Source of the DNA: Planctomycetaceae bacterium
GTDB lineage: Bacteria > Planctomycetota > Planctomycetia > Planctomycetales > Planctomycetaceae
NCBI GenBank assembly: GCA_015485495.1
Contig: WFTL01000091.1
Span: 1-64,000, forward strand
Direction: 5' to 3'
DNA length: 64,000 nt
Below are positions 53,149-63,003 of this stretch, in pieces. The notes below the pieces were generated by a model. That model was not told where the DNA came from. It was given only the letters and a program-made list of their open reading frames with translations, and did not search any database. Position 1 is the stretch's first letter; each line of letters opens with the position of its first letter. The translations under genes and the position numbers were made by a program.

Positions 53149-53862
53149 CACTCAATCCTATCCATGCACTCCCCCGAACGAGCCCTGTCCGGATCCGGGC
53201 TGAAACTCCGGACAGCCGCTTTCCGGTCTGTCGGCCGCAGTCCGTCGGCTGCCCGTCGCCATCAGCCTACCGAAATCTGACCGCAATGTCCTGCGAAAGC
53301 CGCTTCCGGCGTGTGGACGCGTGAGCGAGCCCCTCAGCATGGACGAACGGACTGCACACCGACCGTGCCGTCTGGTCTGCAGTCTTCATCAGCGGCCCGC
53401 CGGAAGCGGTCGGCATATCGGCATCGGAAACGTTCGAAGCACCGCAGACGACAGATCGCCTGCAATCGTCCCGATCGGAAAAGCCGGTGAGATGGTCGGA
53501 AACAGGGATTTCGTCGAGTTTGACGCTGGTGCTGTCCGAGATTCGAAGAAGGGCGGCTCTCTCGTTTCGGACCGCCTCCCGGCAGCTTCGACTGCGGGAG
53601 ACGGCCGTCGCCAGAAGCACCATCTGCGGGTCCGGGATCGGAATCCCGGCGGGTTGACGCAAACCGATGGCGGGCCTGAACAAAGGGCTTGCATCCCACG
53701 TTTCCCCAACTAAGAATCTGATGCGAATCCCGTGATTTCGGCGCCGGATGGCCGATATCCAGACTGTCGCGTTCACAGGGACGGAACGGCGACAGGACAT
53801 CGTCATTCGACAGCGAACGGAATCTGCCGCTCGATCCGGCTGAATTCTCCGGAGTGCTTTCC
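53149..53862. other. Divergent 714-bp intergenic region, possible unrecognised ORF
   Basis: The longest gap with no confident gene. It lies between the pseudoprotease (minus) and the HTH/DSD-repeat protein (plus), so both promoters should be here. Two open frames cover it in opposite directions: a minus frame 53806-53267 (179 residues from ATG) and a plus frame 53321-53713 (130 residues). Both have ordinary codon use and neither resembles a known family. The upstream part has several short GC inverted repeats (for example around GTCCGGATCC near 53188). Coding or regulatory status is undecided. Confidence 0.35.
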
Positions 53863-56052
53863 ATGGCCAACAAGTATCTGACGCTGGAAGAAGCCGCTGA
53901 ACGGCTGGGGATGTCCCCGGAAGAACTCGACGAGCATCGTCAGAAAGGCGAGATCCGCGGTCTGGCCAACCGCGGGAGCTGGAATTTCCGCGAAGATCAC
54001 GTGGAAGAATTTCGGCGCCGCCTGGAAACGGATTCGTCGCCCGACATTCCGATCGCAGACGTTTCCCAGGGACAGCAGTCCGTGGCCGATCTTCTGGGAG
54101 AAACAGACAGCGACAGCGACGTGCAGTTGTTCGCCGACTCATCCGTCTTCGAAGATGACGACGACGACGATCTGACGGATTCCGACAGTGACGTGCGGCT
54201 GGCCGGCGATTCGGACCTCATTCTGGATCCTGAAGAAGGCGAGGCCAGCGTTCTCGATTTTTCCGTTCCGGACGAAATGTCGGCTTCCGACAGCGATGTA
54301 CAGCTCGTGGGAACAGATTCCGACAGCGACGTGCAGCTCATGACGGGCGATGCCGATGTGGCCACGGATGCCGACATCGATCTGGCGTCCGTGCCGCCGG
54401 GAGCATCCATCGATTCGGCAGCAGATACCGGTGCCGCATCAGATGAAGACATTGTTCTGGATTCCGGTCTGTTCGAAAGCGCTCTGGTCGAGGAACCTTC
54501 CGGTACTCAGAAAGAACAGGAAGACGATTCCGACAGCGATGTGATTCTCGCGTCCGGTGCCGACTCGGACATTCTGCTTCCGGCAGCGGATTCCGACAGC
54601 GACGTACAGATTGTTCCCGGAGACGAAACGGACAGCGACAGCGACATTGTCCTGGCAGATTCCGACAGCGACGTCCAGGTGGCTGCGGCCGAACAGGGAG
54701 ACACGTCCAGCGACATCGTGCTGAGCGAATCGGACAGCGATGTCCGACTGGACGGCGACCCGACCGGCGGCCACACAGACAGCGACATTCTGATTTCTGC
54801 AGAAGACAGCGAAATCAAGCTGACCACGCCGCCTCCCGGCAGCATCGCCCCCGGCGACACCGATGAAGACAGCGATATCGTCCTGTCGGATTCCGACAGC
54901 GACATTCGCCTCTCCGGCGACAGCGATTCGCTCGATTCCGACAGCGATGTCAACCTGATCGACCTGCCCGGTGTCGATGACGACACCGAAGGTGAAGTTC
55001 CTTTGATGACCGACGGTGACCGAACGGAAGAAGATCTGCGTCTGATCGACAGCGACATCGATGGCGGACTGAGCAGCGGCGATGGCGATGATGCATCCGC
55101 CACCATTGAACTGCCCGAGGACAGCGACCTGAAAGTCCTCAGTTCAGAAGAAGATGACAGCGGAATCACCATCACCACGCCGGATGATGTCGACAGCGGC
55201 ATCAGCCTGGAAATCGATGACAGCGGCATTTCTCTGGAAGCAGACGACAGCGGCATCAGCCTGGAAGGCGTGGACAGCGGCTTCGCCGACGACAGCGGAA
55301 TCGCTCTGGAATCTGCAGACAGCGGCATCAGTCTGGATGTCGGAGACAGCGGGATTGCTCTGGAAACCGGTGACAGCGGAATCAGCCTGGATGCCGGAGA
55401 CAGCGGGATCGCTCTGGAAACCGGTGACAGCGGAATCGCCCTGTCAGCGGACGACGACAGCGGGATTGTCTTCGAAGGCAACATGGGAAAGACGGTCGCC
55501 ATCGACTCGGTTGAAGCCGCCGGTGTCGATACGTCGGCCGAAACCGTCCAGATGGATGTCGATCCCGGCCTCATCGAACCGGGAATCGCCACCGGGGAAT
55601 TCGATCTGGGACTGCTGGAAAGCGACGATGACGACGAAGGGACGGACACCAGCGTCCTGATGTTCGATGACGACGAGGATGAAGGCGCGGTCGAGACCGC
55701 CGACGACATCCTCGATGACGATGACTACTCCGATTCCGACGCCGACTTCGATGATGACTTCGCCGACGACTTCGATGACGACCTGGACGTGTTCGAAGCT
55801 GAGGAAGAAGAAGAGGCTGAAGTGGCCGGCGGAAAGAGCACCATCGGTCTGGTCGCTCCTTCCGGTCAGTTCGTCCAGGCACCAGAAGCCCCCTGGGGAA
55901 CGGGAGTCACCATCGGCGTGATCATCGGATCGCTGTTTTCCGCCGTCGGCGCGTTCGCCGGCTTTGAACTGGTGCGAACCATGTGGATGTGGTTTCAGCC
56001 GGGAGCGGAACCGTCCGGATTCCTGCAGATGATCGGCGATCTGTTCGTCTGA
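53863..56052 (+). CDS. Helix-turn-helix protein with DSD and DSGI repeats and C-terminal membrane segment
   Basis: The 729-residue protein begins with an excisionase/MerR-like winged helix-turn-helix (NKYLTLEEAAERLGMSPEEL at 3-22, ending near residue 54). Residues 80-365 are a very acidic stretch of repeated DSDSDVQL/DSDIVL units; residues 430-537 hold twelve DSGI(S/A)L(E/D) units, in part with a regular nine-residue period; another acidic run (DFDDDFADDFDDDL) follows, and a membrane segment at about 682-706 (TGVTIGVIIGSLFSAVGAFA) closes the protein. GGAG precedes ATG 53863. Related planctomycete proteins with the same HTH and SDSDV pattern are known only as hypothetical. DNA-binding and membrane tethering are inferred. 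Confidence 0.8.
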   Translation: MANKYLTLEEAAERLGMSPEELDEHRQKGEIRGLANRGSWNFREDHVEEFRRRLETDSSPDIPIADVSQGQQSVADLLGETDSDSDVQLFADSSVFEDDDDDDLTDSDSDVRLAGDSDLILDPEEGEASVLDFSVPDEMSASDSDVQLVGTDSDSDVQLMTGDADVATDADIDLASVPPGASIDSAADTGAASDEDIVLDSGLFESALVEEPSGTQKEQEDDSDSDVILASGADSDILLPAADSDSDVQIVPGDETDSDSDIVLADSDSDVQVAAAEQGDTSSDIVLSESDSDVRLDGDPTGGHTDSDILISAEDSEIKLTTPPPGSIAPGDTDEDSDIVLSDSDSDIRLSGDSDSLDSDSDVNLIDLPGVDDDTEGEVPLMTDGDRTEEDLRLIDSDIDGGLSSGDGDDASATIELPEDSDLKVLSSEEDDSGITITTPDDVDSGISLEIDDSGISLEADDSGISLEGVDSGFADDSGIALESADSGISLDVGDSGIALETGDSGISLDAGDSGIALETGDSGIALSADDDSGIVFEGNMGKTVAIDSVEAAGVDTSAETVQMDVDPGLIEPGIATGEFDLGLLESDDDDEGTDTSVLMFDDDEDEGAVETADDILDDDDYSDSDADFDDDFADDFDDDLDVFEAEEEEEAEVAGGKSTIGLVAPSGQFVQAPEAPWGTGVTIGVIIGSLFSAVGAFAGFELVRTMWMWFQPGAEPSGFLQMIGDLFV
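54103..54963 (+). repeat. Protein-coding DSDSD repeat array
   Basis: Within the HTH protein, motifs of the form (T/A)DSDSDVQL and DSDI(V/R)L recur about 15 times, each encoded by related but not identical GACAGCGAC-type codons. Imperfect identity shows an old, selected repeat rather than recent slippage. Confidence 0.85.
55156..55473 (+). repeat. Protein-coding DSGI(S/A)L tandem array
   Basis: Twelve copies of DSGI(S/A)L(E/D), mostly spaced 8-9 residues (24-27 bp), such as DSGIALETG and DSGISLDAG. Copies near 55340-55435 are close to identical at DNA level, so expansion here is more recent than in the DSDSD array. Confidence 0.9.
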
Positions 56053-56378: not shown

Positions 56379-56774
56379 ATGAAACGCCGAAACCAGCTGG
56401 AAGCGGAAATCAGTCAGGCAGTCATCCGTTTCGAAAAGGAATTCATGGGCCGGGGACCTCTGGAAACCCGCACGTGGATTCTCGGCGACATCGTGCTCGT
56501 GCGGCTGAAAAAGGTCCTCACTCCCGCCGAAGTCCGACTGGCAGAATCCGCTGATACACAGCGAGGCCGCTACCTGGTCAAACAGACACGGCAGGAACTC
56601 ATCGAACAGGGCCGTCCCATGCTCAATGCCATCATTCATGATCTGCTGGGCGTGGAATGTGTGAGTCTGCATACGGACATCAGCACCCGAACCGGCGAAC
56701 GCATCATCGTGTTCACTCTCGAACGCACGCCCGACTGCCTGCCGGATCTGCCGGAAGGCGCCCGGTCCGGCTGA
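56379..56774 (+). CDS. DUF2294/MpsC-like small protein
   Basis: The 131-residue protein has the features of Pfam DUF2294, now named after MpsC: GRGPLETRTWILGDIVLVRL (conserved GRGP...R), KKVLTPAEVRLAE, GRYLVKQTRQELIEQGRPML and LLGVECVSLHTDISTRTGER. In Staphylococcus MpsC belongs to a Na+-translocating, membrane-potential-generating system, whereas many bacteria carry DUF2294 alone, as here: no mpsA/B-like proton-antiporter genes are in the window. It is soluble, with no membrane segment. A promoter-like pair lies 140 bp upstream. Its own function in planctomycetes is not known. Confidence 0.85.
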   Translation: MKRRNQLEAEISQAVIRFEKEFMGRGPLETRTWILGDIVLVRLKKVLTPAEVRLAESADTQRGRYLVKQTRQELIEQGRPMLNAIIHDLLGVECVSLHTDISTRTGERIIVFTLERTPDCLPDLPEGARSG

Positions 56775-56791: not shown

Positions 56792-56820
56792 TTGACTTCC
56801 GGTCAGATGCCCCTTAGCAT
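56792..56820 (+). promoter_or_regulatory. Sigma70-like promoter of the candidate small RNA
   Basis: TTGACT (56792-56797), a 17-bp spacer and TAGCAT (56815-56820) match the consensus at five and four of six positions with optimal spacing. It starts 18 bp after the DUF2294 stop codon, in a place where no gene start follows for more than 250 bp. A start near 56827 is predicted. Confidence 0.55.
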
Positions 56821-56826
56821 CGTGCC

Positions 56827-56983
56827 GATAGAACTGATTGAGCAGGCTGCGCGGAATGTTCCGACTGGGGAACCGTCTGCCGGCACGCTCTTCATTCTTT
56901 TCCGTCAGTGTTGCGCGAGACAGCGGGCTTGCGCAGACAGACCGGCCGACCACGTCATCCGTGGCAGACCGGTCTTTTTTTTT
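56827..56983 (+). ncRNA. Candidate independent small RNA of about 157 nt
   Basis: The stretch runs from the predicted start of the TTGACT/TAGCAT promoter to the end of a strong terminator. Internal structure is visible: GTTCC/GGAAC hairpin (56858-56862 with 56869-56873), a TGCGC/GCGCA hairpin (56912-56916 with 56931-56935), a pyrimidine-rich open stretch between them (CTCTTCATTCTTTTCC at about 56888-56903) and the terminal two-part stem. No ORF with a ribosome site is seen inside. It does not match SRP RNA, tmRNA or RNase P in any feature I know; 6S-like identity cannot be tested without folding. Confidence 0.5.
56940..56983 (+). terminator. Strong Rho-independent terminator
   Basis: GACCGG (56940-56945) pairs with CCGGTC (56969-56974) and CCACG (56950-56954) with CGTGG (56960-56964), separated by a small internal loop, with loop TCATC; nine consecutive T follow (56975-56983). 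This is the clearest intrinsic terminator in the window. Confidence 0.8.
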
Positions 56984-57074: not shown

Positions 57075-57314
57075 ATGTCACAGATCAGCAGATTCTGGCG
57101 TCGGCATTCCGGCAGCGGCGCTGCATCCTGTGAACCGTCCGTCAGGGAACCGGCAGACCGGCTGATTCCGCCGACTGTTCCGATTCGGGCACCTCAGGAT
57201 CGGACTGCGGAATTGTCCGATCCCCCACACCCCCGGGACTACGAAGCCCATCTGGCGCATGTGACGCCCCCGATCCGCTGGTGCGGAAGCCTGGCGGACA
57301 TCCATCTCGCGTAG
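57075..57314 (+). CDS. Possible small hypothetical protein
   Basis: ATG 57075 opens a frame of 79 residues (MSQISRFWRRHSGSG... to ...WCGSLADIHLA), preceded by AGGAAAA eleven bases upstream. It is basic at the start and Pro-rich in the middle, with no membrane segment or known motif. It lies after a strong terminator and before the type I secretion operon, so it would need its own promoter. Could be a real planctomycete small protein or an accidental frame in the 770-bp gap. Confidence 0.4.
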   Translation: MSQISRFWRRHSGSGAASCEPSVREPADRLIPPTVPIRAPQDRTAELSDPPHPRDYEAHLAHVTPPIRWCGSLADIHLA

Positions 57315-57548: not shown

Positions 57549-59489
57549 ATGCAGGTTCTTCATGCCCTGAACACAGCGATCGTGTGTCTGCTGCTGAGCG
57601 GATGTGCTGTTTCGTCAGATGTCCTGTCAGCGGTCTCCCGAACCAGTTCGACTTCCGGACTCCCTCCCGCTTCTCCGCAGCCCCTTTCCTCAGCGGACAC
57701 CACACAGCGGCACAATCTGCCGGAGCGGGATTCAGCGGGACCTGACCGCCCGTCTGCGGCTCCGGAATCCGTATCGAAGCCGCCCGAAACGTCCGACCAT
57801 GCCGGAACGGCAGCTTCCGGAACGGCGCAGATGTCCGACATGTTCCGGACGTCAGGCGATGACCATCGCAGCCGGTCTTCGTCTCCTCCCGACAAAGAGA
57901 CGTCGGTTGTTCCTGCTGTCCGGAGATCGGACGATCAGAATGCGTCCGGCGTCCCGAATGAGCCGGATGTCCAGAACGGCCGGATTCGCCTGTCGTCTTC
58001 TGACACGCGTTCAGCGGAACCTTCCCGCGGTGAATTTCAGGATGCGGAAGAGGCATCTGTGGAGTCCGTCGAACCGATTCGGACGGACGAGCTGGTTTCC
58101 GGATTTCTGCCGTCTGACCGGACCGAGACAGCACCGCCTCTGGAACTGCAGGACGTGATCGATTCGGTTTACTCCTCATACCCTCTGCTGACAGCCGCAC
58201 TCCTGTCCCGCACGATCGCCGACGGAGAACGCCTGTCGGCCAGCGGGGCCTTCGATCTGAAACTCAAGGGCGGCGGAACCGGGGCGCCGCTGGGATACTA
58301 CAGGACGTACCGCTTTGGTGCCGGCGCCAGCCAGCCGCTGTTTTCGGGAGGCGAAATTTTCGGCGGATACAAGATCGGCCGCGGGAATTTCCAGCCGTGG
58401 TTCGGAGAACGCAACACCAACGACGGCGGGGAATTCAGCACCGGGGTTTCTCTCCCACTGGCCCGGAATCGGCGGATCGATCAGCGGCGGGCGGAACTGA
58501 TGAAAACGAACTGGGGGCGCCGTGCTGTCGAACCCGACATTCAGCGTCAGGTGATCGAATTCGTCAGAGAATCCACCTATGCGTACTGGCAGTGGGTCGC
58601 CGCCGGCCGGAACTACCAGATTGCCCGTTCCCTCCTGGACATCGCCGAACAGCGGAACGCCGCACTCAGGCGACGCGCGGAACTCGGCGACATCGCTCCG
58701 ATCGACGTGACAGACAATGAACGGCTCATCGTATCCCGCCGATCGGCACTCATCGATGCCCGCCGGAAACTTCAGCAGGCGGCCGTCAAACTGTCTTTGT
58801 TTCTGAGAACACCGGATGGAGAACCCGTCATTCCCTCAGAAGACCGGCTTCCGGAATCATTTCCACCTGCGGAACCGGTCGATCCGGACCGGCTGGACGC
58901 CGACATCCAGATCGCTCTGGCCGGACGTCCTGAACTGACGCTGCTGGAAATGCAGCGACGAAAACTGCACGTCGATCTGTCTCAGGCACGCAATGAATAT
59001 CTGCCGCAGGTGGATGCCATTCTGTTCGCATCCAAAGATGTGGGTGGAGCCACCAGCCCCAAACGGGACAAAACCCCGTTCGAACTGGAAGCCTCTGTTC
59101 AGGTGAGCGTCCCTTTCCAGCGCCGCAAAGCCCTCGGAAAAATCCGTTCTCTGGAAGGGAAGCTGTCTCAGATCTCTGCAAAGGTCGGACTGACAGAAGA
59201 CAAAATTGCCACGGAAGTCCAGGTCGTCCAGGCAGCTCTGGACGCATCGTTCCGTCGGATTGTTCAGGCGGAACAGAGTCTGGAGCTGGCCCGCACGATG
59301 GAACAGGCAGAACGCCGAAAATTCGAACTCGGGCAAAGCAACCTGCTTCTGGTCAATCTGCGGGAAAAGGCCGCAGCCGATGCCGCGAAAACTCTGCTCC
59401 AGGCCATGCTGGATTATCACCTGGCTCAGGCAGACTACCGCGCCGTCATGGCTCTGGATGTCGGTCCTCAGGGAGTCACTCGGTCATGA
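57549..59489 (+). CDS. TolC-family outer-membrane lipoprotein of a type I secretion system
   Basis: The 646-residue protein has a lipobox (AIVCLLLSGC, Cys 19), then an unusual disordered Ser/Pro/Glu-rich stretch of about 175 residues before the TolC repeats. The two TolC halves run from about residue 200 (LELQDVIDSVYSSYPLLTAA) and about 430, with helical hairpins such as FVRESTYAYWQWVAAGRNYQ, ARRKLQQAAVKLSLFLRTP and MEQAERRKFELGQSNLLLVN. It should form the outer-membrane exit duct. Its stop overlaps the ABC gene by four bases (ATGA at 59486-59489), which makes a TolC-ABC-HlyD operon clear. Confidence 0.92.
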   Translation: MQVLHALNTAIVCLLLSGCAVSSDVLSAVSRTSSTSGLPPASPQPLSSADTTQRHNLPERDSAGPDRPSAAPESVSKPPETSDHAGTAASGTAQMSDMFRTSGDDHRSRSSSPPDKETSVVPAVRRSDDQNASGVPNEPDVQNGRIRLSSSDTRSAEPSRGEFQDAEEASVESVEPIRTDELVSGFLPSDRTETAPPLELQDVIDSVYSSYPLLTAALLSRTIADGERLSASGAFDLKLKGGGTGAPLGYYRTYRFGAGASQPLFSGGEIFGGYKIGRGNFQPWFGERNTNDGGEFSTGVSLPLARNRRIDQRRAELMKTNWGRRAVEPDIQRQVIEFVRESTYAYWQWVAAGRNYQIARSLLDIAEQRNAALRRRAELGDIAPIDVTDNERLIVSRRSALIDARRKLQQAAVKLSLFLRTPDGEPVIPSEDRLPESFPPAEPVDPDRLDADIQIALAGRPELTLLEMQRRKLHVDLSQARNEYLPQVDAILFASKDVGGATSPKRDKTPFELEASVQVSVPFQRRKALGKIRSLEGKLSQISAKVGLTEDKIATEVQVVQAALDASFRRIVQAEQSLELARTMEQAERRKFELGQSNLLLVNLREKAAADAAKTLLQAMLDYHLAQADYRAVMALDVGPQGVTRS

Positions 59490-61642
59490 GCGAACCGGTA
59501 AGCGATGATCAGCAGCTTGTGGACCTGCTGGAATGGCTGGCTGCCGAATGCGATGTGGCGTTCGATCGCGTCGTCGCCCGGCGGGCCATTCAGGAAGCCC
59601 GGCAGGGCTGGCCCGGCAGCGAGGAAGAGCAGTGGTGGAAATGGCTCATCGAAGCCGGCGACAGCATGGGACTGCGTGTTCGTGTCGTGGAACTCACGTT
59701 TCAGCAGGCGCTGGAAACCGTGCGGGAAAAGACGCTGGCAGTACGCCTGCCGCACGCACTGTCCCCCTGGCTGCTCATTCACCGGCAGCGGCGACGACGG
59801 TTTCACATCGTGACTGCCGACAACAGCCCGGAAGGCCGCTGGGTCACAGCTTCCCGTCTTTCGGCTCTGATGAATCATCCCCCCGCCGGCGAACGGCTCA
59901 CCTGGGTGGTTGTCGAGCCGGCCGTCACCTGCCATTCGATGCCGGCGCCCGGCGGCACCGCGGAAACGCCTCCTGCCCGTCCCCTGGACCGACTGACCGG
60001 ACTCCTCAAAGCCGAACGATCGGACATCTGGATCGTTCTCGTGTTCGCGCTGTTCGTCGGCCTGCTGGGCCTCACCACGCCGCTGGCCATTGAGGTGCTT
60101 GTTTCGACGGTGGCCTTCGGCCGGACTCTGCAGCCGATCATCGTGCTGTCTGTCATTCTGTTCGCTTTTCTGGCATTTTCGGCTCTGGTGCAGGCCGTGG
60201 AAAAGTACGTGGTCGAACTGATTCAGCAGCGACTGTTCGTCCGCATCGCGGCCGATCTCGCCTGGCGGCTGCCACGCGTGCACCGCGCCGCTCTGGATCA
60301 TCAGTACGGCCCGGAACTGGCCAACCGCTTCTTCGATGTGGTGACCGTCCAGAAGGTCGTGGCCACGCTGCTGATCGATGCGCTGGATCTGATCATTGTC
60401 ACCGTGGCCGGGATGGTCGTGCTGGCCCTGTTCCACCCGCTGCTGCTGGGACTGGAGCTGATCCTGATGGCTCTGATTCTGTTCGCCCTGTTCGTTCTTG
60501 GACGGGGCGGTGTGGACAGCAGCATCACTGAATCGAAGTACAAGTACGCCATGGCCGCGTGGCTGGAAAACGTCATTCGTTCTCAGCGTGCCGTAAAACT
60601 GGAAGGCGGATACGAATATGCCGTGGAACATGCCGATCAGATCGCACGGCGCTATCTGACGGCCCGTCAGACCCACTTTCGTGTGCTGTTCCGGCAGATC
60701 CTGTTCAACCTGACTCTGTACGCCATCGGCAGTGCCGTGCTGTTCGGTGTCGGCGGGATTCTGGTTGTACGAGGCCAGTTATCGCTGGGACAGCTCGTGG
60801 GAGCGGAACTGATCGTGTCCATCGTTCTGGGTTCCGCGATCAAAATGAGCAAACATCTGGAAGGTTTCTACGACCTGATGGCCTCTGTCGACAAACTCGG
60901 CACGCTGTTCGACCTGCCTCTGGAACGTCAGGACGGTCTGCTGTCCGTGCCGGGAACGGGACCGCTGGAGATTCGGCTGCGCGATGTGGGTTTCCGATAC
61001 TCCGTTGGGCCGCCGGTTCTCAGCGGTTTCAGCCTGACCGTGCCGCCCGGCCAGGTTCTGGGAATCCACGCCCCACCGGGCGCCGGAAAAACAACTCTGG
61101 CCGAACTGCTGTTTGGCCTCAGGCGGGCCACGTCAGGAAACATCGAATTCAACGGAATCGACGCCGACGATCTCCGGCCGGACGTGCTGCGGCACCATGT
61201 GGCTCTCGCCGCCCATCCCGTGGAAATCCTCGACGGAACCGTTTCCGAAAACGTGCATCTGGATCGCGTGGAAGTCAATTCCACCGTGGTCCATGAATCC
61301 CTGCAGCAGGTCGGTCTTCTGGAAACCGTGTTTCTGCTGCCGGATGGCCTGGAAACCCCGCTGACCGCCGACGGAACGCCCCTGTCTGAAACACAGCAGC
61401 GACGCCTTGTTCTGGCCCGCGCTCTGGCCGGGCGGCCCCGTCTGCTGATCATCGACAGTCTCCTGGATTCCTTTTCGGACGATGACGGCCTGGATCTGCT
61501 GCGCAGTCTGACAGAGCCGGACAACGGCTGCACCATCATTCTGTTCAGCGGACGACAGCGCCTGCTGAGTGCCTGCGACCGAACCCTGCAGCTCAACCGC
61601 ACTGCAGATTCCTCCCCGACTGCAGAACAGGAGAATCCCTGA
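59486..61642 (+). CDS. Type I secretion ABC transporter with a degenerate ATPase domain
   Basis: The 718-residue protein has an N-terminal C39-like domain (about 1-150, without the catalytic Cys), six membrane segments (about 180-455, IWIVLVFALFVGLLGL onward) and an ABC ATPase domain (495-705). The P-loop APPGAGKTT (529-537) keeps Lys535, and Walker B LLIID keeps Asp657. However, the catalytic Glu is Ser658, the Q-loop Gln is His577 (AAHPVEILDGT), the signature LSGGQ is LSETQ (633-637) and the H-loop His is Gly689 (LFSGRQ). Thus ATP may bind but hydrolysis is doubtful. It lies between TolC and HlyD genes, overlapping both. Confidence 0.93.
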   Translation: MSEPVSDDQQLVDLLEWLAAECDVAFDRVVARRAIQEARQGWPGSEEEQWWKWLIEAGDSMGLRVRVVELTFQQALETVREKTLAVRLPHALSPWLLIHRQRRRRFHIVTADNSPEGRWVTASRLSALMNHPPAGERLTWVVVEPAVTCHSMPAPGGTAETPPARPLDRLTGLLKAERSDIWIVLVFALFVGLLGLTTPLAIEVLVSTVAFGRTLQPIIVLSVILFAFLAFSALVQAVEKYVVELIQQRLFVRIAADLAWRLPRVHRAALDHQYGPELANRFFDVVTVQKVVATLLIDALDLIIVTVAGMVVLALFHPLLLGLELILMALILFALFVLGRGGVDSSITESKYKYAMAAWLENVIRSQRAVKLEGGYEYAVEHADQIARRYLTARQTHFRVLFRQILFNLTLYAIGSAVLFGVGGILVVRGQLSLGQLVGAELIVSIVLGSAIKMSKHLEGFYDLMASVDKLGTLFDLPLERQDGLLSVPGTGPLEIRLRDVGFRYSVGPPVLSGFSLTVPPGQVLGIHAPPGAGKTTLAELLFGLRRATSGNIEFNGIDADDLRPDVLRHHVALAAHPVEILDGTVSENVHLDRVEVNSTVVHESLQQVGLLETVFLLPDGLETPLTADGTPLSETQQRRLVLARALAGRPRLLIIDSLLDSFSDDDGLDLLRSLTEPDNGCTIILFSGRQRLLSACDRTLQLNRTADSSPTAEQENP

Positions 61643-63003
61643 TGGACCGGCATGCCCCGGCACCGCCTGTTCCCAGGCGGCTTGCTGACACCGATCTGAC
61701 ACCGTCGCTGAGGCTGGCCAGGTCGTCGCGCTGGGCGCGTCATCTGGCCCGCTGGATGGTTCTGCTGCTGATCAGCATCGTCGTGTTCACAGCCTTTGCT
61801 CCATGGCAGCAGTTCGTTCAGGGAAACGGACAGGTCGTTGCCTTCAACCCGCTGCACCGCGAACAGACCGTTCAGGCTCCTGTGTCCGGCCGCGTGACCC
61901 GCTGGATTCCGGGAATTCGCGAAGGCATGCGTGTGGAAAAGGGACAGACGATCGTGGAAATCCGCGACATGGATCCGAATCTGCTGGAACGGCTGGAACA
62001 GCAGGTCGACGCAACACGGCGGGAGATGGAGTATCTGCAGAAAATGTCGGCCACCTATGAATCGCAGGTGGAGGAATTCCGCCAGGTACGGGATCAGATG
62101 GTGGCCGCGGCGGACCAGTACATCCTCATGGCGAAAGAAAAACGGAAGGCCGAACAGCAGAAACTGCAGGCGGCCCAGGCGGCTCTCGTCCAGATCGAAA
62201 CGGATTACAAACGGCAGAAACAACTGGCTGAAGAAGGCATCGCGTCGACTCTGAAACTGCAGATCGCTGACCGAAAATTCCAGGAAGCGACCGCCAAAGT
62301 GAAGCAGGCCCGGGCCGCAGTGGCCGCGGCGGACAGTGCCGTCGAAGCGAAGATTCGGGAACGAGAAGCCAAAGCGCGGGAAGGCCAGACGAAAATCGAT
62401 TCCGCCACGGCGAAGCTGCGCAGGGCGCAGAGCGATGTTGCGAAAACGGAAAAACTCCTGCTCGATCTGAATGTCAAACTGTCCCGCCAGCAAAGTCAGG
62501 TGGTCACCGCTCCCTGGGACGGATTCGTGTTTCGCCTGAACACGTTCCAGCAGGGAGCCATCGTCAAGAAAGGGGACGCTCTGTTCACCATCGTCCCCGA
62601 CACTCCGGATCGGGCTGTGGAACTGTGGCTGGACGGCAACGATGCGTCCTGGGTCACCACGGGCCGCCATGTCCGGCTGCAGTTCGAAGGCTGGCCCGGC
62701 ATTCAGCTCGCCGGCTGGCCGTCTCTTGCCATCAACACCTTCGGCGGAAAGGTCTCCGTCATCGATTCCACCGACAACGGAAAAGGGCAGTTTCGCATTC
62801 TGGTCTGCCCCGATCCGAACGACATTCCCTGGCCTTCGGATCGATTCCTCAGACAGGGGGTGCAGGCGCGGGGACTGGTGATGCTGGAACGCGTCCCTCT
62901 GTGGTTCGAAATCTGGCGCCAGCTCAACGGCTTCCCGCCCGTGGTCGACGTGGACATGCCGAAGAAGAAAAGCAAAGGTGGTCTGCTGAAGAAACTGAAA
63001 TAG
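61642..63003 (+). CDS. HlyD-family periplasmic adaptor (membrane fusion protein)
   Basis: The 453-residue protein has one N-terminal membrane segment (about 38-55, WMVLLLISIVVFTAFA), a lipoyl/barrel-sandwich half motif (GNGQVVAFNPLHREQTVQAP and SGRVTRWIPG), a long alpha-hairpin coiled coil (about 115-290, rich in Glu, Lys, Ala), the second half (VVTAPWDGFVFRLNTFQQGA followed by IVKKGDALFTIV) and a C-terminal Lys tail. It should link the inner-membrane ABC protein to the TolC duct. ATG 61642 shares its A with the ABC stop (TGATG), and AGGAG lies eight bases upstream. No RTX or other secretion substrate is encoded next to it. Confidence 0.94.
   Translation: MDRHAPAPPVPRRLADTDLTPSLRLARSSRWARHLARWMVLLLISIVVFTAFAPWQQFVQGNGQVVAFNPLHREQTVQAPVSGRVTRWIPGIREGMRVEKGQTIVEIRDMDPNLLERLEQQVDATRREMEYLQKMSATYESQVEEFRQVRDQMVAAADQYILMAKEKRKAEQQKLQAAQAALVQIETDYKRQKQLAEEGIASTLKLQIADRKFQEATAKVKQARAAVAAADSAVEAKIREREAKAREGQTKIDSATAKLRRAQSDVAKTEKLLLDLNVKLSRQQSQVVTAPWDGFVFRLNTFQQGAIVKKGDALFTIVPDTPDRAVELWLDGNDASWVTTGRHVRLQFEGWPGIQLAGWPSLAINTFGGKVSVIDSTDNGKGQFRILVCPDPNDIPWPSDRFLRQGVQARGLVMLERVPLWFEIWRQLNGFPPVVDVDMPKKKSKGGLLKKLK

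Follow-up and report, generated by a model that had tools for sequence, protein, structure and literature searches.

A structured RNA with its own promoter and terminator beside planctomycete mpsC genes, best read as a leader attenuator of inorganic-carbon genes

Results

Anatomy of the locus

The analyzed window, 64,000 nucleotides of a contig from a Planctomycetaceae bacterium, contains a compact unit of promoter, hairpins and terminator, which lies between an mpsC gene and a short open reading frame (ORF) followed by export genes. The features are as follows.

56379–56774, forward strand: MpsC (DUF2294) gene, 131 aa, Pfam PF10057 with 122.7 bits; the upstream neighbor, which tracks the element across genomes
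56792–56797, forward strand: −35 hexamer TTGACT, from the sequence and its comparative placement
56815–56820, forward strand: −10 hexamer TAGCAT after a 17-nt spacer, from the sequence and the promoter placement in homologous leaders
56840–56890, forward strand: hairpin P1, GAGC...GCTC with internal loops; the P1 region folds with z −2.1 in the window
about 56890–56906, forward strand: pyrimidine-rich linker between P1 and P2, from the sequence
56911–56937, forward strand: hairpin P2, 9 bp, with bulged A56935 and loop ACAGCGGG (56920–56927), from covariation and a P2-only held-out model
56940–56974, forward strand: terminator stem-loop P3, GACCGG...CCGGTC, from the fold and covariation
56975–56983, forward strand: run of nine T, the terminator tail, from the sequence
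56903–56980, forward strand: covariance-model match to P2 and P3, 60.5 bits with R1 (window in training) and 40.8 bits with R2 (window held out)
57075–57314, forward strand: 79-aa ORF, 91 nt past the T run, with AGGA 5′ of the ATG and the end ...PIRWCGSLADIHLA before the stop; shared C-terminal motif D..DIYLA
57549–59489, forward strand: TolC-like outer membrane efflux protein (Pfam PF02321)
59486–61642, forward strand: ABC exporter of the type I secretion/bacteriocin-export type (Pfam; NCBIfam matches all below the curated cut-offs)
61642–63003, forward strand: HlyD-type membrane fusion protein (Pfam PF13437)

The promoter TTGACT-N17-TAGCAT, the two internal hairpins with the pyrimidine-rich stretch and the terminator stem with its nine T all lie where the initial annotation had placed them, and its name for the upstream gene, DUF2294, is the right one (Pfam MpsC). 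Its statement that the unit holds no credible ORF was upheld, and no conserved leader peptide was found among 18 leaders either. The folding energy of the 157-nt unit is −67 kcal/mol (z −3.55), beating 200 of 200 shuffles. Promoter-like sites occur three times in 17 kb versus 2.5 expected, so that the window promoter by itself does not exceed chance. Of 20 homologous leaders, 13 have their best sigma70-like match ending 65–80 nt 5′ of the modelled RNA start. Evidently, it is the comparative data, namely the promoter at a conserved distance and the match of a held-out model, which make the unit convincing.

The 79-aa ORF has no NCBIfam match. Its end (ADIHLA) belongs to a C-terminal motif, D..DIYLA, which is common to several short ORFs and one carbonic-anhydrase-like protein (window, L003, L021, L022, L065 and L066). 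The ORFs at the same place end with ...PIRCLGDPRDIYLA in L022, ...DPRDTYLA in L021 and ...GDPTDIYLA in L003, the carbonic-anhydrase-like protein of L066 carries the C-terminus ...SYDPCDIYLA, and in genome G467 the ORF that precedes the second leader likewise terminates in IYLA. This end is possibly a conserved tail or degron-like, and the 79-aa ORF might be a remnant of the carbonic-anhydrase-like protein or a short partner for it.

An outer membrane efflux/ABC/HlyD system, the ABC component with an N-terminal region like that of NHLP-bacteriocin exporters, or parts of such a system, adjoin the MpsC-leader locus in the window (57549–63003) and in L064, L068, L069 and L022, on either side of mpsC. 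By inspection, export genes of a similar kind were found upstream of mpsC in G019, G541 and G542. The protein encoded directly upstream of mpsC in the window (53854–56052, 732 aa) has an HTH_17 domain at its N-terminus, numerous DSDSDV/DSGI repeats and a hydrophobic C-terminal end, possibly a membrane anchor.

A homologous RNA family

By sequence comparison the window unit is one copy of a homologous RNA family absent from Rfam. The close MpsC homologues of other genomes (59–77% identity) are followed by the same layout downstream of the gene, and alignment of these loci, as suggested in the initial annotation, unveiled compensatory changes in P2 and P3. The core of the family is the 9-bp P2 hairpin abutting a terminator with a GCCGG stem. 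A single purine bulges out near the base of P2, the loop of 8–10 nt has A as first and G as last nucleotide (all manually aligned members), and the spacing between P2 and the terminator stem is 2–4 nt in nearly all of these members. A P1-like hairpin is frequent among the relatives and variable in sequence (mean z −1.4 for 20 leaders), and its homology as a single structure is not demonstrable.

For P2 and the terminator base, a structure-blind MAFFT alignment gives two-sided changes in 10 of 15 pairs with 95% of the cells paired, a value which drops to 38–53% when the partner is slid. Cells with two-sided changes number 28 in this alignment versus 9.0 ± 2.5 in shuffles. Leaving out the window and taking in the whole terminator gave two-sided changes in 15 of 23 pairs (33 cells versus 11.9 ± 2.5 shuffled); as the shuffle control leaves relatedness in place, the covariation figures are strong but not exact. 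Furthermore, R2 recognizes the window with E 8.3e-9 in 202 kb, and for the P2-only held-out model the window site is the best match in 64 kb (18.3 bits, E 0.019).

The novelty of the element in Rfam stands: Rfam 15 gave 0 matches at the gathering threshold in the window, and when the element and 29 related loci were scanned permissively, just two matches came up, each of them scoring far below threshold. The window unit gave no blastn match in any of 59 related genomes, among them two from its own genus; the locus shows that a hunch drawn from sequence only can point to a homologous RNA family even where blastn offers no support. Among the papers searched, none combined riboswitch and DUF2294, and no title dealt with riboswitches or leader RNAs of bicarbonate transporters and carbonic anhydrases.

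Distribution among genomes

All R1 matches of at least 40 bits in 170 genomes of the family sit in MpsC neighborhoods, except for a single one at G005:C40 (58.2 bits), which lies 45 nt ahead of dabB-dabA in an unlinked region with no MpsC nearby. R2 gave this copy, which was in no training set, 65.3 bits, and the model of P2 alone gave it 39.9 bits (E 1.3e-7). For the close MpsC type a match of at least 22 bits was found in the MpsC neighborhood in 17 of 17 genomes, where matches of 22–32 bits rest mainly on position, since other terminators also reach such scores. The strong form of the element was found solely in genomes with the close MpsC type; distant MpsC homologues (at most 50% identity) gave weak model scores, with no element nearby. 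DabA is present in 128 and Sbt_1 (SbtA) in 62 of the 170 genomes, and the element therefore follows the MpsC type rather than these transporters as a whole. The two other genomes of the window's genus have neither MpsC nor the element. The window genome's own dabA (C89) has no model match, and sbtA was not found in this genome.

Several sites were rejected as members. Matches of about 28–32 bits at unrelated places (G511, G013, G425, G487, G031 and other genomes) resemble ordinary terminators or chance, and reverse-strand model matches at MpsC loci are terminator palindromes. The deltaproteobacterial MpsC loci L023 and L024 gave no match with the covariance model; both show, 3′ of MpsC and before a P-type ATPase, a strong promoter, a hairpin and a terminator in the layout of the element. 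Tandem leader elements were observed between mpsC and carbon-uptake genes in L057, L058, L059, L063 and L065, the second leader having a related P2 hairpin and a different 5′ part.

Genes downstream of the element

The genes following the element in the relatives are mostly of one theme. DabB-DabA lie downstream in G196, G481, G472 and at the unlinked G005 locus, a carbonic-anhydrase-like protein together with an isocitrate-dehydrogenase-like protein and SbtA in G005 and G467, and in G019 a carbonic-anhydrase-like protein and SbtA are joined by a LysR regulator. A SulP transporter follows together with a universal stress protein in G502 and G494 and with a carbonic-anhydrase-like protein in G459, and bestrophin accompanies carbonic anhydrase or universal stress protein in G059 and G480. 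DabA, Sbt_1, Sulfate_transp, Pro_CA and Bestrophin_2 are supported by Pfam, while the names LysR and isocitrate dehydrogenase are our own reading of the sequences. In G178, a genome of a different family, the element precedes a carbonic-anhydrase-like gene; in G466 the gene that follows has no relation to carbon uptake. The element also occurs upstream of mpsC itself (G165) or of an ORF-mpsC pair (G502, G494).

The distance from the terminator to the ATG is 16–97 nt in 12 loci, about 45 nt at the unlinked dabB locus and 16–29 nt in five loci (16–18 nt before the universal stress protein genes, 28 nt in L021 and 29 nt before the carbonic anhydrase of L005). At 16–29 nt there is no space for a second promoter and, therefore, transcription of the gene must pass the terminator. 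With the order promoter-hairpin-terminator-ORF, the element is placed in the 5′ leader between promoter and start codon, as attenuators and riboswitches are.

Discussion

Conditional termination and its alternatives

The element is real, homologous and uncatalogued, and its best explanation is a leader attenuator which acts in cis on inorganic-carbon genes. We assign a probability of about 0.62 to the reading that the unit is a cis-acting 5′ leader, which would control the following genes via conditional transcription termination. The homology, the covariation of P2 and P3, the placement of promoter and terminator and the gene context come from the comparison of sequences across genomes. A cis arrangement is favored because the element stands directly 5′ of genes of mostly one theme, and also at the unlinked dabB locus without MpsC. 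In G493, G502 and G494, which belong to one genus, the element has no such promoter and lies between two genes, a placement which suits the control of readthrough. The genes downstream of the window copy include no known carbon transporter, which counts against the model, as do the window genome's dabA with no model match, the unrelated gene in G466, the variable P1 and the missing element in the two other genomes of the genus.

According to this model, the sigma70-type promoter would give an RNA of ~155 nt consisting of the variable P1, the conserved P2 and the strong intrinsic terminator, and by default RNA polymerase would halt at the T run. A signal, probably sensed via P2 with its bulged purine and A...G loop, perhaps via P1, would prevent termination, and the operon would be transcribed. 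We infer that termination is regulated, that sensing or binding takes place at P2 and that the signal is tied to inorganic carbon or to MpsC. The operons thus controlled would mostly serve the uptake and handling of inorganic carbon (bicarbonate/CO2) and sometimes comprise mpsC itself; the window copy would drive the 79-aa ORF and possibly also the type I export system behind it. Regarding a switch between two folds, the 5′ arm of the terminator can, once its 3′ arm is omitted, pair with the segment 5′ of P2. The mean duplex energy is −6.1 versus −5.0 ± 0.6 kcal/mol in shuffles (8/300 shuffles, 48/300 partner swaps), slightly exceeding the shuffles (~3%) but not the partner swaps between loci, and a mutually exclusive antiterminator is thus weakly supported.

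The initial annotation had proposed a candidate new small RNA, which holds for an uncatalogued structured RNA with promoter and terminator. It is not favored for a free-standing, trans-acting sRNA as the main role, as the element lies repeatedly directly 5′ of protein genes and has the unlinked dabB copy. Such an sRNA of ~155 nt, which would base-pair with mRNAs of carbon metabolism or bind a protein and would merely adjoin the operon, is in our view rather unlikely. Its own promoter at a conserved distance, the strong terminator and the stable fold would suit it, and an attenuator would yield short terminated transcripts anyway. Nevertheless, the position before varied, mostly functionally related genes and the terminators so close to start codons that no further promoter fits speak against an sRNA in trans, and a conserved unpaired seed region is absent, conservation being located in the P2 stem and the loop ends.

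We regard as unlikely, too, that the site is an ordinary gene boundary, where the terminator ends mpsC transcription and the promoter is fortuitous or feeds the next gene by fixed, unregulated leaky readthrough. The chance-level score of the window promoter and the position of the terminator 3′ of mpsC in most loci agree with such a boundary, but the promoter lies 5′ of the terminator at a conserved distance, the element also occurs without mpsC and before mpsC, and P2, superfluous to a plain terminator, is conserved with compensatory changes. A ribosome-mediated attenuator with a leader peptide would likewise place a leader with a terminator before the operon; this is highly improbable, for no consistent short ORF preceded by a Shine-Dalgarno sequence overlaps the 18 leaders. 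That the signals were assembled by chance in one genome, as the missing blastn similarity in 59 relatives might suggest, has practically no weight: it is refuted by the E value of the held-out match (8.3e-9) together with the covariation.

MpsC and the possible signal

Within the leader-attenuator reading, the nature of the signal leads to a more specific proposal, which we consider doubtful: the leader might sense inorganic carbon, be it bicarbonate/CO2 itself or an ion or pH signal linked to it. It might do so directly, as a riboswitch of a new class, or through MpsC, which would then be an antitermination protein that binds RNA and regulates the genes for carbon uptake as well as mpsC in some species. 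MpsC is a natural candidate for the trans factor because it co-occurs with the element and sometimes carries the leader itself. The structure of MpsC was predicted with confidence (pLDDT 91), and the predicted fold showed no significant match to solved structures; weak matches to a uL23-like fold (TM about 0.3) were not used. Residues R25, R42, K68, R71, R79, H98 and D100 are invariant except where gapped in an alignment of 31 sequences (A4).

S. aureus transports bicarbonate through MpsAB; its mpsA responds to CO2 and goes down at 5% CO2, mpsAB and mpsC are separated by a weak terminator, and deletion of mpsC caused no growth phenotype (PMC6689103). Outside the staphylococci mpsC has been reported not to be collocated with mpsAB (PMC6689103); contrary to this report, MpsC adjoins dabBA in three planctomycetes.

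Comparison with known systems

The element resembles transcription-attenuating riboswitches in being a 5′ leader of transport genes with its own promoter upstream and an intrinsic terminator right behind the structured domain. It differs from them in matching no known aptamer family (no significant Rfam match), in its low sequence conservation outside P2 and the terminator and in its weakly supported antiterminator. Li+ and Na+ riboswitches are structured leaders upstream of cation transporters, and the element shares with them the position of a structured leader upstream of ion transporters; the Rfam scan, however, covered the catalogued riboswitch families and found nothing significant in the window or the 29 related loci. 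With BglG/LicT-type RAT and other protein-dependent antitermination leaders it shares a short bulged hairpin directly 5′ of the terminator, a plausible protein-binding site. In contrast to the RAT systems, no BglG/LicT-type protein was noticed among the neighboring ORFs scanned, which were part of the neighbors, and the co-travelling MpsC has no known RNA-binding role. The MpsAB(C)/DAB operons, such as mpsABC of S. aureus and the ybcC region of B. subtilis, likewise have a gene of the MpsC family beside transporter genes of the DabB/DabA type, but the staphylococcal terminator lies before mpsC and no such leader RNA has been described there.

If the leader-attenuator reading is true, bacterial bicarbonate uptake would be under RNA-level control common to transporters of the Dab, SbtA and SulP types and present in at least two planctomycete families, and the MpsC family would gain a testable role. 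A bicarbonate-sensing or MpsC-dependent mechanism, if shown, would lift the element beyond ordinary leader attenuators.
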